IMG/VR virus record: IMGVR_UViG_3300044940_000499
Span: 1 to 20,254 of that record
Direction: 5' to 3' (one strand)
DNA from: a virus
DNA: 20,254 nucleotides
The notes under the pieces: generated by a model
Seen by the model: only the letters and a program-made list of their open reading frames with translations
Database searches by the model: none
What the model was told of the DNA's origin: nothing
Translations under genes and position numbers: made by a program
Shown here: positions 3,637-19,251 of the stretch, piece after piece
How positions within the stretch are numbered: the stretch's first letter is position 1
Layout of the letters: each line of letters begins with the position of its first letter

Positions 3637-5733
3637 TCAAGCACGGTTACTGCCTTGAGCGCCCGCCTCGGTTGCGGCTGCTCTCAGGCTTTCCAGCGTG
3701 GCGGCGTCGGCGTGGACGATCCAGCGCCCCTGGGGACCGTCCACCTGGCGTGCGGTTAGCTTCCCTTGGCGTATCCAGGCGTAGACGACCTGCGGGCGGA
3801 CCCCAACCGCGCGTGCCAAATCGGGGACGAACCATTCGTCTTCCTTGAGCGTCAACTGATCGTTGCTCGCACCCCGGCGAACCTCGGTCAATCCACACCG
3901 GCTCAGGGCGGCGCGAATCGTGGCTGCGGTGAATCCCTTGTGGTGCGGCGACGTTCGTCCCTCGCGGTTCAGTTGCTGGGCGATCTGCTTGGCGGTGAGT
4001 CCTTTATTCTTCAGAGTCACGATGCGTTGCCGCAGCTGCGGCCAATCACTGAGTTGGGTCAGACTGGCCACGGGCCGGCGAAAGCGCGTGTAGGTCTGGT
4101 GCCCGCCGGCCCAGTGCAGCCAGGCTTCCACCCACTCCGTTTTGCCTTCGACCTGAAGGACCACCTTGTCCAGAATCTGCCGCAGGATCGCCTTGCGGTC
4201 GGCGTCTGTTGTCGTGGGTGCGTGCCAGAGGGCCGGCAGATCAGCGGCCAGGCGGCGGATGGCCTCTTGCTCCTCCGCCGTCAACAGCTTGGGTTGTCCC
4301 TGGACGAAGCGTTCGTATTCCTCGTGCAGTTCCCGAGCCGCTCGCAGCTTTTGCTCCCACGCCGCCTCCAGCGTCCGGCAGACCAGGCGATTCTCCGGCT
4401 CGACCGCATCGTACTGCCGCCGGGCGCGATCGGCCTCGTAGTCGGCCCGTTGCAGGCGATAGTGCCATTGGGCCTCGATCTCGTCCCGCTCCTTCTTCCA
4501 GTCGGCCGCGACCTGCAAACTGACCTCCAGCGCAGAAGGCTCCAGGGCCCGGAGCGCCAGGCGGACCACTTCGTCATCCACGGGCCGGGCCGCCAGGCTC
4601 TGGCATTCCGCCTCGCCGAAGTTAGCACGCGCCGAGGAGCAGGCGTAGCGCGGCAGGGCGCTTTTGCCGCTTTGATGGGTCATCATCCGAGCACCGCACC
4701 GGCCACAGACCACCAGCCCGGTCAAGAGCGCACGCCCGGGCCGAATCGGTCCGCGGCGCTGCACATAGGCCTGATTTTCCTGTATCTGGGCGACGTTTCG
4801 CTCGTATTGCTCCCAGGTGATGTACGCGGGATAGCGGTCGCGTAGCAGCACTTGCCACTGGTCCGGAGGCAGCCAGCCGCGGCGTCGTTTCTTCGGGCCA
4901 CGCTGTTTGTCCAGGCAACTGCGCCCGTAAGAATAAGCGCCGGCGTACATGGGGTGCCGCAGCATGATGCGCAACGCCGTTTTGTTCGGCCGCCGCCACT
5001 GGAGGCTGCCCTTGTCAGGACCCGAGTGCATGCGGACCGGCAATTGCATGCGGTTGGCGATCAGGTAGCGCAAGACCGCGCCGACCGAGCCTTGCCGCGC
5101 GAACTGCTCGAAGATGGTGCGCACGATGGCCTGCACTTGCTCATCGGGGTCCAGGGTCACTTCGCCCGATGGCCGGCGAATGTAGCCGACCGGCACGAGG
5201 TTGACCAACTCTCCGCGCCGCGCCTTCTGCATGACGCCCTGGTGCATCCGTTGCTGGAGGATGTGCAGCTCGGCTTCCGACATCGTGCCTTTCAAGCCGA
5301 GCAGGAGGCGGTCATTGTAGGACGAGGGATCGTACAGCCCGTCCAGGTCGCCGATGAGCGTGCCGAAGAGGGCACACAGTTCGAGGAGTTGATACCAGTC
5401 CTTGCAACTGCGTGCCAGCCGCGACATCTCCACGCCGAGGATCAACCCCACATGATCCAGGGCCACTTCGCTGAGCAGACGCTGAAAACCGGAGCGGCCT
5501 TCCGCGGACGCGCCGGAGATGCCGAGGTCGTCGTCGATGACCAGGATGCGCTCACGCGGCCAACCCAGGCGCTCGGCGGTGTTGGCGAGGCCGTATTGCA
5601 GTTGGGTCGATTCTTGATTGTGCTGCACCTGGTGCAGGCTCGATTGCCGGACGTAAACGACCGCCAGGCGCTCAAAATGCCGGCCCTGGATCTTGTGCGA
5701 AGACACGATCGGCGTCGCTGCCGTTTGGTTCAT
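3637..5733 (-). CDS. Large serine recombinase with C-terminal HTH and excisionase-like domain
   Basis: 698 residues. Residues ~24-170 are the resolvase catalytic domain: YVRQS puts the nucleophile at Ser31, and SRLAR (104-108) supplies active-site arginines. Residues ~180-320 match the Recombinase DNA-binding domain. A zinc ribbon follows (Cys343, 346, 365 and 377), then a charged coiled-coil (~410-480). Unusually, the tail adds an HTH-like segment (~565-615, LTAKQIAQQLNREG) and a MerR/excisionase-like module (~634-690, FVPDLARAVGVRPQVVYAWI). The start ATG has GGAGGA 6 nt upstream. It should cut and rejoin DNA at the element ends through a Ser-phosphodiester intermediate. It appears intact and is the only full gene of the element. 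Confidence 0.92.
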   Translation of the reverse strand: MNQTAATPIVSSHKIQGRHFERLAVVYVRQSSLHQVQHNQESTQLQYGLANTAERLGWPRERILVIDDDLGISGASAEGRSGFQRLLSEVALDHVGLILGVEMSRLARSCKDWYQLLELCALFGTLIGDLDGLYDPSSYNDRLLLGLKGTMSEAELHILQQRMHQGVMQKARRGELVNLVPVGYIRRPSGEVTLDPDEQVQAIVRTIFEQFARQGSVGAVLRYLIANRMQLPVRMHSGPDKGSLQWRRPNKTALRIMLRHPMYAGAYSYGRSCLDKQRGPKKRRRGWLPPDQWQVLLRDRYPAYITWEQYERNVAQIQENQAYVQRRGPIRPGRALLTGLVVCGRCGARMMTHQSGKSALPRYACSSARANFGEAECQSLAARPVDDEVVRLALRALEPSALEVSLQVAADWKKERDEIEAQWHYRLQRADYEADRARRQYDAVEPENRLVCRTLEAAWEQKLRAARELHEEYERFVQGQPKLLTAEEQEAIRRLAADLPALWHAPTTTDADRKAILRQILDKVVLQVEGKTEWVEAWLHWAGGHQTYTRFRRPVASLTQLSDWPQLRQRIVTLKNKGLTAKQIAQQLNREGRTSPHHKGFTAATIRAALSRCGLTEVRRGASNDQLTLKEDEWFVPDLARAVGVRPQVVYAWIRQGKLTARQVDGPQGRWIVHADAATLESLRAAATEAGAQGSNRA

Positions 5734-7239: not shown

Positions 7240-7243
<4 letters not shown>
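6749..7243 (+). CDS. DUF2924 domain-containing protein
   Basis: 164 residues from ATG 6749, with GGAGGA about 5 nt upstream. The N-terminal half is helical (ELAALGRMTVKELRDKYAEV, then NQTWLVRRIAWRLQAL). The C-terminal half carries the family signature: PGTLITREYRGETVQVKVL, FEYEGQVYRSLSAVAKAITG and NGYFFF. DUF2924 proteins are typically encoded next to serine recombinases in phage-like and integrative elements; their biochemical role is unknown, though accessory DNA binding in recombination is plausible. The stop overlaps the recombinase start as ATGA (7240-7243), so the two should be translationally coupled. Confidence 0.9.
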
Positions 7244-8810
<1,567 letters not shown>

Positions 8811-8814
<4 letters not shown>

Positions 8815-13546: not shown

Positions 13547-14320
13547 ATGAGTCTCCTGGCACAAGTCCAGAGCGGCAAGCGCCTCGCCCCGCGGCGGGTG
13601 CTGCTCTACGGCACCCACGGCATCGGCAAATCGACCTTCGGCGCCTCCAGCGACAAGCCCGTGTTCGTCCAGACCGAGGACGGCCTGGGCGAGATCGACT
13701 GCGACAAGTTCCCGCTGGCGCTGTCCTACCAGGACGCCCTCAAGGCCCTGGAGGGCCTCTACACGGAGCCGCACCCCTACCGCACGGTCGTCGTCGATTC
13801 GCTCGACTGGCTGGAGCGGCTGATCTGGGCCGAGGTCTGCCGCCAGCGCTCCGTCGAGAACATCGAGGACATCGGCTACGGCAAGGGCTACGTCTTCGCC
13901 CTGACGCCGTGGCGCGAGTTCCTGACCGGCCTGGACGCCCTGCGCAACGACCGGGGCATGACCGTCGTCCTCATCGCCCACGCTCGGATCGAGCGTTTCG
14001 AGAACCCCGAGACGGACAGCTACGACCGCTACGTGCCAAGGTTGCACAAGCTGGCCTCGCAGACCATCCAGGAGTGGTGCGACGAGGTGCTGTTCGCCAC
14101 CTACAAGGTCTACACCAAGCAGACCGACGAGGGCTTCAGCCGCAAGAAGACCAAGGGCATCGGCACCGGCGAGCGCGTCCTGTACACGAGCGAGCGCCCC
14201 TCCCACGTCGCCAAAAACCGCCTGGGCCTGCCCGACGAGCTGCCGCTCGACTGGCGCGCCTACGCTTCCTTCTTCCACCAACCCAATGTGACCCCGAACG
14301 GAGGACCGACCAATGGCTGA
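13547..14320 (+). CDS. Sak4-like RecA-fold ATPase, phage-type recombination ATP-binding protein
   Basis: 257 residues from ATG 13547, with GAGGAA about 6 nt upstream. Walker A is GTHGIGKST (22-30) and Walker B is TVVVDSLDWL (80-89). Downstream, VVLIAHARIERFENPE and the TGERVLYTSERPSHVAKNR block are typical of phage nucleotide-binding proteins of the Sak4 group, which act as single-strand annealing or RecA-like recombinases with an SSB-type partner. The gene lies between the PD-(D/E)XK nuclease and the DUF669 gene and overlaps the latter by 8 bp, so the three probably form one recombination complex. Confidence 0.85.
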   Translation: MSLLAQVQSGKRLAPRRVLLYGTHGIGKSTFGASSDKPVFVQTEDGLGEIDCDKFPLALSYQDALKALEGLYTEPHPYRTVVVDSLDWLERLIWAEVCRQRSVENIEDIGYGKGYVFALTPWREFLTGLDALRNDRGMTVVLIAHARIERFENPETDSYDRYVPRLHKLASQTIQEWCDEVLFATYKVYTKQTDEGFSRKKTKGIGTGERVLYTSERPSHVAKNRLGLPDELPLDWRAYASFFHQPNVTPNGGPTNG

Positions 14321-17048: not shown

Positions 17049-18904
17049 CCACTTCCGAGCTTCGAGACGCGGCGCTGCGGTACGCCGAGCTGGGCTACCG
17101 CGTGTTCCCCTGCGCGCCGGGCGACAGCAAGCCACTGACCGACCACGGTTTCCTCGACGCGACCACGGAGGTTGAGCAGATCGAGCGCTGGTGGGAGCAC
17201 CACCCGACCGCGAACGTCGCCATCGCCGCCGCCGGGCTGCTCGTGGTTGATCTCGACCCGGCGGGAGGGGACGCGGCCAACCCGTGGCTCAAGGACGACC
17301 CGGACAAGCAGCTCGACCTGGCGGCCGCGCCGACGGCCATGACACCGCGCGGCGGACGGCACCACGTCTTCCGCAAGCCGGCGGGGAAGGGCTGGCGCTG
17401 CACCGCGAGCCGGCTGGCCCCGAAGGTCGATACGCGCACGGACGGCGGCTACATCGTCGTGCCCCCGTCCCGGAGGCCGGACGGGGCGTACTCCTGGGTG
17501 CCGGGCCTGGAACTCGACGGCCCGCCCGAGCGGCTCCCCGAGCCGCCGCCTTGGTTGGTCACGTTGCTCGACGGGTTGGCCCAGGAAACGCCCACGTTGG
17601 CCCACGTGGCGGCCGGCCCGCCCGAGGCGAACGCGATCCCGGAGGGCCAACGGAACGCGACCCTGGCGCGCCTCGCTGGCACGATGCGCCGCGTCGGGAT
17701 GTCCCGGTCCGAGATCCTGGCGGCGCTGCTGCGGGTCAACGACGACCGTTGCCTGCCGCCACTGAGCGTTGCCGAGGTGGAGCAGGTCGCGTCTAGCGTC
17801 GCCCGGTACGAGCCCGACCAGATCGCGACCGCAATGGCCGAGGGGCACTGGGACCAGCTCCTGGCCCAGGCGCCGCTGCTGGTCCCGGTCAGCCTGGCCG
17901 ACCTGGTGGCGCGCTACCCCGACCTGCGCCGGCCGGTGATTCACGGCCTGCTGCGCCGGGGCGAGACGATGAACGTCATCTCGGCCCCCAAGATCGGTAA
18001 GTCCTGGCTGGTCACCGACCTCGCCCTGGCCGTCGCCACGGGGAGGCCCTGGCTCGACACCTTCACGACCGAGCCGGGTGCCGTGCTCATCATCGACAAC
18101 GAACTTCATGGCGAGACCTCGGCGAACCGCATCCCCAAGGTCGCGGCGGCCCGGCAGATCGACCTCGCGGACGTTGGCGGGCGAATCTTCGTGCAGAACC
18201 TGCGGGGGCACTGGCAGGACATCTTCTCGCTCGGGCCGTACTTCCGCTCCCTGGAGCCGGGGCGGTTCCGGGTGATCGTCCTCGACGCCATGTACCGCTT
18301 CATGCCCCGGGAGATGGATGAGAACGACAACGGCACGATGGCCAACGTTTACAACGCCATCGACCGCTACGCTGACCTTCTGGGCTGCTGCTTCGTGCTG
18401 ATCCACCACACCAGCAAGGGGAACCAGTCCGGCAAGGCGATCACCGACGTGGGGGCAGGCGCCGGTAGTCAAAGCCGAGCGACCGACACGCATTTGATCC
18501 TGCGTCCGCACGAGGAGGACGACGTGGTCGTGCTGGAGGCCGCAGTGCGTTCCTGGCCGCCAGTGATGCCCAGGTGCCTGCGCTGGGCCTTCCCGGTGTG
18601 GACGCCGGCTGACGACCTGGACCCGACGCTGTTGCGAACCGAGAAGCCCAGGCGCAGGGAGAAGCCTGCGGCAGAAGACGAACCGCAGGAGGAGTGGACC
18701 CCGGAACGGTTCGTCCAGGCGTGTGTGTCGGAAGCGCCGGAAACGAGGGCGGTCATTCTCGACCGCGCCGAAGGACTCGGGCTGTCCAACCGCCGTGGGG
18801 TTCAACTGCTGCAGCGTGCGGAGTTCGCTGGCCTGATCCACCGATGGCAAGACGGACGCGGTAAGCCCGTCGTCTACTCCACCAAACCCAAGGAGCCGGA
18901 CTAA
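17042..18904 (+). CDS. Bifunctional primase-polymerase fused to RepA/DnaB-like AAA helicase
   Basis: 620 residues from GTG 17042, behind a GGAGGAG site. Residues ~8-175 are an archaeo-eukaryotic-type Prim-Pol: VVDLDP gives Asp70 and Asp72, RGGRHHVF gives the histidine motif (His107/108), and DGGYIVVPPS (134-143) is the third motif. Residues ~200-257 resemble PriCT-1. Residues ~300-500 are an AAA_25/RepA-like ATPase: SAPKIGKS (314-321) as Walker A, VIVLDAMYRF with Asp415 as Walker B, and VLIHHTSKG (452-460). A winged-helix-like tail ends the protein. It can prime and unwind DNA in one chain, as expected for an element encoding its own replication initiation. The adjacent repeat array may be its origin. 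Confidence 0.9.
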   Translation: MVTTSELRDAALRYAELGYRVFPCAPGDSKPLTDHGFLDATTEVEQIERWWEHHPTANVAIAAAGLLVVDLDPAGGDAANPWLKDDPDKQLDLAAAPTAMTPRGGRHHVFRKPAGKGWRCTASRLAPKVDTRTDGGYIVVPPSRRPDGAYSWVPGLELDGPPERLPEPPPWLVTLLDGLAQETPTLAHVAAGPPEANAIPEGQRNATLARLAGTMRRVGMSRSEILAALLRVNDDRCLPPLSVAEVEQVASSVARYEPDQIATAMAEGHWDQLLAQAPLLVPVSLADLVARYPDLRRPVIHGLLRRGETMNVISAPKIGKSWLVTDLALAVATGRPWLDTFTTEPGAVLIIDNELHGETSANRIPKVAAARQIDLADVGGRIFVQNLRGHWQDIFSLGPYFRSLEPGRFRVIVLDAMYRFMPREMDENDNGTMANVYNAIDRYADLLGCCFVLIHHTSKGNQSGKAITDVGAGAGSQSRATDTHLILRPHEEDDVVVLEAAVRSWPPVMPRCLRWAFPVWTPADDLDPTLLRTEKPRRREKPAAEDEPQEEWTPERFVQACVSEAPETRAVILDRAEGLGLSNRRGVQLLQRAEFAGLIHRWQDGRGKPVVYSTKPKEPD

Positions 18905-18928
18905 TGGCAGTGCGATCTGCAACGGTTC

Positions 18929-19139
18929 GGGTTGAGCGCGCACACGGCTTATTCGGCGTGCGCTCAACCCAAGGGACAAGGCTTGGGTTGAGCGCGCACG
19001 AAGGCGGTTTTGCTGCGCGCCCAACCCAGCAGAACGTGGTTTGGGTTGAGCGCGCGCACCCCCCATACCCCCCAAGGGAGCGTGCCGCACCCAGGCGGCA
19101 CGCTCCCTTGGGTTGAGCGCGCGTGCGCGCTCAACCCAA
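18929..19139. repeat. Array of TTGGGTTGAGCGCGC direct and inverted repeats (candidate origin or regulatory array)
   Basis: Seven copies of the unit lie in ~210 bp. Four are forward (18929-18942, 18983-18998, 19041-19058, 19108-19122) and three reverse (18959-18972, 19014-19028 with one change, 19125-19139). They pair into successive hairpins; the last is a perfect 15-bp palindrome around GT. Nested before it is a separate perfect 17-bp stem, CCCAAGGGAGCGTGCCG (19071-19087) with its complement at 19096-19112. An ORF crossing the region (18904-19116) is a by-product of the repeats. Iteron-like copies directly after a primase-helicase gene suggest a replication origin; a recombination or regulatory site is also possible. 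Confidence 0.65.
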
Positions 19140-19251
19140 CGCGAAATAGGTACTTCCCGGCCGTCCTGCGGCCCGGCCCCGCGGCGGGAACAGCCGCCAA
19201 GGTAAGCAGAGTTTGTTTTCGAGGTCCGAACTTCCCCGGAGCAGAGGAGCC

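Follow-up and report, generated by a model that had tools for sequence, protein, structure and literature searches.

What is the function of a dense cluster of inverted repeats that stands directly behind the primase-helicase gene of a phage? The window that we analyzed is the whole of IMG/VR record IMGVR_UViG_3300044940_000499 (20254 bases). Its right half is filled by a phage DNA-metabolism module, as judged from profile matches, which runs from an exonuclease VIII-like gene through Sak4/AAA_24, a DUF669 single-strand-binding protein, RusA and a ResIII helicase to the primase-helicase, the repeat array and a ParB-domain methyltransferase. The 620-aa primase-helicase matches PF09250 (2e-38), PF08708 (1.3e-15) and PF13481 (7.6e-30), and we propose it as the origin-binding initiator. 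A near-identical contig of the same phage (locus L036, 99.99% over 12.5 kb) extends past the methyltransferase, where we read a terminase-like ORF at 13994. When the region was compared as DNA with a phage collection, no isolated phage matched. At the left record end, the open-ended ORF at 2-1594 carries a pretoxin HINT domain, weakly matches teneurin/YD-shell and is likely host-side sequence; two different large serine recombinases lie in opposite orientation at 3637-5733 (-) and 7240-8814 (+), the second preceded by a DUF2924 gene. An earlier sequence-only reading had offered an iteron origin, a structured RNA and binding sites for the ParB-domain methyltransferase as explanations of the array. 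Our comparisons indicate that the array is most likely the replication origin of a Planctomycetota phage, and that its repeats would be iterons to which the neighbouring primase-helicase attaches through its winged helix.

Seven TTGGGTTGAGCGCGC-like units with 0-2 mismatches extend from 18927 to 19139 in the order + - + - + + -, the first beginning 22 nt past the primase-helicase stop codon, a spacing comparable to that in relatives (Table 1). When the entire window was dinucleotide-shuffled 100 times, the mean was 1.3 matches and no shuffle reached seven, confirming the seven copies reported beside the primase-helicase gene. The orientation is mostly alternating, as described earlier, although strict alternation fails at two consecutive + units. 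The embedded perfect stem of different sequence is likewise present, with a measured length of 18 bp instead of 17 bp, and units 6 and 7 do form the final 15-bp perfect palindrome whose arms are separated by 2 nt (19108-19139). Absent from that description is the C-tract pair CCCCCCATACCCCCC. The single-strand fold of the region is extreme both as DNA (z = -10.1) and as RNA (z = -11.4), with z = -6.4 for the main part of the GC-rich hairpin. The array shows no evident AT-rich unwinding element, a point against the origin reading. The possibility that the 15-mer is a dispersed repeat was not borne out by an IMG/VR search. The 15-mer is present in 47 stretches and, besides the window, forms an array only in L036 and in a relative (L012); L022 has one isolated hairpin with the 15-mer, and the remaining stretches mostly have single matches.

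Table 1. Positions of the primase-helicase gene, the array elements and the following gene in the window.
Feature	Position	Strand	Remarks
Prim-Pol/PriCT_1/AAA_25 primase-helicase gene, 620 aa	17042..18904	+	Pfam; PHROG DNA primase families
C-terminal winged-helix domain, coding part of primase-helicase gene	18695..18880	+	AlphaFold2, Foldseek
Repeat unit 1, TCGGGTTGAGCGCGC	18927..18941	+	
Repeat unit 2, TTGGGTTGAGCGCAC	18958..18972	-	
Repeat unit 3	18983..18997	+	exact
Repeat unit 4, CTGGGTTGGGCGCGC	19015..19029	-	
Repeat unit 5	19041..19055	+	exact; immediately before C-tract motif
C-tract pair CCCCCCATACCCCCC (C6-ATA-C6)	19059..19073	+	best conserved array part in relatives
GC-rich hairpin	19071-19088 / 19095-19112	.	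18-bp perfect stem, 6-nt loop
Repeat unit 6	19108..19122	+	exact; palindrome left arm
Repeat unit 7	19125..19139	-	exact; palindrome right arm
ParB-domain methyltransferase	19252 onward		3' of array

A search with the primase recovered 79 viral loci and 66 loci in genomes, most of the latter from Planctomycetota. The inverted-repeat array directly 3' of the primase is kept in relatives whose primases are 51-85% identical, with changed unit sequences; about 70 related Planctomycetota phage and prophage loci mostly carry the same type of structure at that place, built from a different unit. The unit GGGTTGAGCGCGC of the window is shared by L012, and other units recur in groups of loci: GGGTCGAGCGCGC in L054 and L056, CTGTGTGGTGAG in L057, L058, L060 and L068, a GGAACA-type unit in L055, L066, L067 and L075, CGCTCGAGCGA in L132-L136 except L135, GAACTCGAAGCGCGC in L145, L160, L165 and L169, and TTCGTTTTGTGCGC in L146, L149 and L150. 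The common core of these arrays is the C-tract pair: the 71 loci compared have 45 of these pairs in the first 1 kb after the primase stop codon, versus 6 elsewhere (both strands, 897 kb). The strict pair is missing in 21 of the 62 loci whose 3' sequence reaches at least 300 nt, which counts against the origin reading; some of these 21 have variants, some have a large single or other hairpin, and 3 have none. In most relatives a strong hairpin follows the C-tract pair, and its stem sequences are unrelated between elements (individual folds, 18 elements). RNAalifold yielded no consensus fold of this hairpin because its register differs between elements. Two hallmarks of known origins are found here, namely a Prim-Pol gene with a 3' stem-loop that is kept in structure and changes in sequence, as in the pRN1 type, and several near-identical repeats adjoining an initiator gene, as in iteron origins. 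The first downstream gene and its distance to the array differ among relatives, and GC skew showed no clear switch at the array in five related contigs.

The co-variation of the repeat unit with one domain of the primase points to the protein that probably reads it. AlphaFold2 predicted the primase C-terminus as three helices and a beta-hairpin with pLDDT above 90 over most of the domain, and the top Foldseek matches are ArsR/Fur-type winged helices, with weak E-values. Across 44 elements, unit similarity tracks winged-helix similarity after correction for the helicase domain (partial Mantel r=0.37, p=0.0005); for unit versus helicase identity with the winged helix corrected, the values are r=0.06, p=0.18. 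The winged-helix signal is the same in the 28 elements with a ParB gene (r=0.37, p=0.0005), a subset in which helicase identity retains some signal (r=0.26, p=0.0015). Individual loci illustrate the pattern. The helicase of the window is 94-95% identical to those of L054 and L056, and its winged helix and unit are nearest to those of L062. Compared with the window, L057, L058 and L068 are 92-95% identical in the helicase, 86-96% in ParB and 43-46% in the winged helix, and their units are unrelated; for L057 the values are 94%, 96% (ParB domain) and 43%. The repeats are thus matched to the DNA-binding domain of the putative initiator by the partial Mantel test, as in iteron origins, with part of the match possibly due to linkage: because the array lies next to the winged-helix codons, recombination could exchange both at once and so produce some of the correlation. 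When the domain was divided into sub-segments, the signal was strongest in helix 1, weaker in helix 2 and in the recognition helix, and weakest, amounting to no signal, in the wing, which is the segment nearest the array. This pattern shows no plain distance effect, nor does it single out the recognition helix.

An extra C-terminal helix-turn-helix-like stretch lies past the winged helix in L055, L061, L063, L066, L067, L071-L075, L094, L142 and L151, and in several of these loci GGAACA- or GCGAAC-type units replace the longer inverted units.

Known origins offer several points of comparison. In Streptococcus thermophilus phage Sfi21, genes for AAA_24, ResIII helicase, DUF669, Prim-Pol/PriCT_1 and SF3 helicase are followed by a feature annotated as 'origin of replication, 302 bp non-coding region, phage inhibitory sequence'. 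PMC6356513, citing Foley and colleagues 1998, gives this region as a replication origin, extra copies of which block the phage, so that it acts as a phage-encoded resistance element. AAA_24, ResIII helicase, DUF669 and Prim-Pol/PriCT_1 are common to the Sfi21 module and that of the window, in both, non-coding DNA with repeats immediately follows the primase-helicase gene, and the Sfi21 origin also contains inverted repeats (GGTTACT/AGTAACC). Unlike the window, where a single protein combines an AAA_25 helicase with a winged helix and the region is GC-rich with C6-ATA-C6, Sfi21 has its primase and SF3 helicase (DUF5906 + Pox_D5) split over two genes, and its origin has an AT-rich centre without a C-tract pair. 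We found no SF3 (DUF5906 / Pox_D5) helicase in the window and no BLASTP similarity to orf382.

Among archaeal plasmids, the Prim-Pol gene of pRN1 requires a 3' stem-loop that is conserved in structure and not in sequence, and the same stem-loop origin has been proposed for Bordetella phage BIP-1 (PMC4234260). As in the window, the Prim-Pol replication gene of pRN1 is followed by a stem-loop and its product has a C-terminal winged helix (PMC4234260). However, pRN1 has one 100-bp stem-loop, no reported iterons and an SF3 helicase, in contrast to the seven-unit array, hairpin, C-tract pair and AAA_25 helicase of the window. Phage P4 alpha is likewise a primase-helicase whose winged helix binds origin repeats (PMC4234260), but its primase is of the Toprim type and the likeness is one of mode of action. 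The RSF1010 oriV combines iterons with hairpins (ssiA/ssiB) as possible priming sites (PMC4234260); there, three separate proteins are involved, and the hairpin of the window is only a putative priming site. In Bordetella phage BPP-1 the C-tract pair is absent, and inverted repeats of TGCCTCGTTT do lie 3' of the Prim-Pol gene bbp29, where paired direct repeats TTGCCTCGTTTGCCTCGTTT face AAACGAGGCAAACGAGGCAA (L372:3610-3710), an arrangement that lets the published BIP-1 stem-loop be read as iteron-like.

By these analogies the window array most likely works like the Sfi21 and pRN1 origins. It belongs to neither type outright, because it combines an AAA_25 helicase with a multi-unit array and a C-tract pair. 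That an origin occupies the equivalent place in Sfi21, with its similar gene set, and in pRN1 supports the origin reading; that both use an SF3 helicase and not AAA_25 counts against it.

The iteron origin suggested earlier thus draws its support from the position kept in relatives, the co-variation of unit and winged helix, and the Sfi21 and pRN1 parallels. The C-tract pairs that cluster behind the primase, follow AAA_25 genes of other families and lie in initiator ORFs also count in its favour. We propose that the 15-bp units would serve as iterons for the winged-helix tail of the Prim-Pol/AAA_25 primase-helicase to bind, with winged helix and unit matched separately in every phage lineage. 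Once bound, copies of the primase-helicase may load and separate the strands near the C-tract pair and the GC-rich hairpin; there the helicase would unwind the DNA and the primase would begin synthesis. In this scheme we infer the binding, the melting and the priming, as well as what the C-tract pair does. We found no published work on the replication origins of Planctomycetota phages. On this reading, such an origin can be placed to about 200 bp along with its likely reader protein, and the winged-helix/repeat pairs would be a natural series from which DNA recognition could be worked out and orthogonal replicons built.

Four other explanations were weighed, which we rank in the order operator, structured RNA or terminator, packaging site and ParB site. 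The array could be an operator through which the primase-helicase or another phage regulator controls early replication versus methyltransferase/terminase transcription, with replication starting elsewhere. Its place does fit, with the replication genes on one side and, on the other, the methyltransferase gene followed by the terminase-like ORF, and binding inferred from co-variation leaves its effect unspecified. We nevertheless consider an operator unlikely, as no promoter-like site was found in a scan of the region, the first downstream gene and its distance vary, the C-tract pair recurs within initiator genes of other phages, and the corresponding regions of Sfi21 and pRN1 have replication functions (PMC4234260, PMC6356513). 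That the array acts as a structured RNA, or terminates or attenuates transcription of the replication operon, seems to us quite improbable. The predicted RNA fold is very stable (z = -11.4), but it is equally extreme for DNA, Rfam returned only sub-threshold matches, none above a family gathering score, and unit changes in L012 are uncompensated between the arms, which fits protein sites on duplex DNA better. With the terminator and promoter scans also empty, the structured RNA offered by the sequence-only reading is not supported. An intrinsic terminator was rejected, since no T-run follows the GC-rich hairpin.

A DNA packaging (cos/pac) site is still harder to credit. The array lies between replication and packaging genes, and a separate conserved block near which several contigs end (19146-19234) precedes the methyltransferase gene, but the array varies with the primase winged helix, and block and array are separable, the block being missing from L161, L169 and L177. 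Least probable of all, and to a degree that makes it barely tenable, is a parS-like site bound by the downstream ParB-domain methyltransferase. That gene follows the array in the window and in many relatives, but L057 carries an unrelated unit beside a 96% identical ParB domain. ParB similarity does not predict unit similarity among the 28 elements with a ParB gene (p=0.22 after correction for the winged helix; p=0.52 after correction for helicase and winged helix), and several loci with arrays or C-tract pairs, such as L066 and L067, have no ParB gene detected in the downstream DNA covered. The repeat sequence does not match the ParB domain, and we rejected this candidate.

The block between the array and the ParB-methyltransferase gene reads AGGTACTTCC...GCGGGAACAGCCGC...GCAGAGTTTGTTTTC...GTCCGAACTT. 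In stricter form the block is found in 54 IMG/VR stretches, and in several of 10 loci inspected a ParB-methyltransferase-like ORF lies 3' of a block of this type, with the array present or absent. The block is possibly a promoter or a cos-like site.

The C-tract pair also occurs well outside this phage group. The C6-ATA-C6 15-mer is present in at least 120 IMG/VR stretches and, among the matches listed, lies inside a same-strand ORF in 65 of 124. When 63 of these ORFs were scanned, again among the matches listed, the best-matched families were replication initiation, primosomal or DnaD-like helicase-loader families, the top three having 18, 12 and 11 members; about 1 of 63 control ORFs from the same loci fell in initiator families. 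The motif is read in all three frames, giving PPIPP in 26, TPHTP or PHTP in 24 and PPYPP in 13 of the matches listed, and L217 and L220 have identical local DNA around the C-tract in different reading frames because one extra base immediately precedes it. The use of all frames and this frame shift point to selection on the DNA. In L221, L226 and L310 the pair is non-coding, surrounded by repeats and located 3' of AAA_25 genes of other families, as in the window. Of the control 15-mers, C6-TAT-C6 is partly linked to initiators and C6-AAT-C6 weakly. A survey that took DUF1376 genes regardless of whether they had the motif (398 genomes of the phylum of Lichenicoccus, 30 loci) speaks against a general role, since about 1 in 30 has a clear C-tract pair (L398); the motif therefore marks one subtype of initiator gene and not all.

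A literature search on C6-ATA-C6 in phage replication found nothing relevant, and the motif seems undescribed. We give about even weight to a broader proposal, in which C6-ATA-C6 would be a cis-element of phage origins that unrelated initiator classes retain as a DNA sequence. It would lie outside coding sequence 3' of Prim-Pol/AAA_25 genes, and within linker codons, in any frame, of O-like, DnaD-like and primosomal initiators. It might then serve as a shared melting, loading or priming site alongside lineage-specific iterons, and the pair would offer a searchable origin mark for phages known from sequence alone.

In E. coli K-12 the linker of the Rac gene ydaU (L318:12634-12655) reads CCCCCCCTAAATCCCCCCCGGGGG, including the related CCCCCCCTAAATCCCCCCC, and resembles the C-tract pairs of initiator genes in kind and position; Rac has an active origin, oriJ (PMC3945230). 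Inside the initiator genes of L207, L217 and L220, direct repeats of the GTCACGCCA type lie upstream of the C-tract, and a purine tract GAGAAGAGAAGA is found upstream of it in these three loci and in L309. From their sequence, these direct repeats and purine tract have an arrangement resembling iterons followed by an unwinding region.
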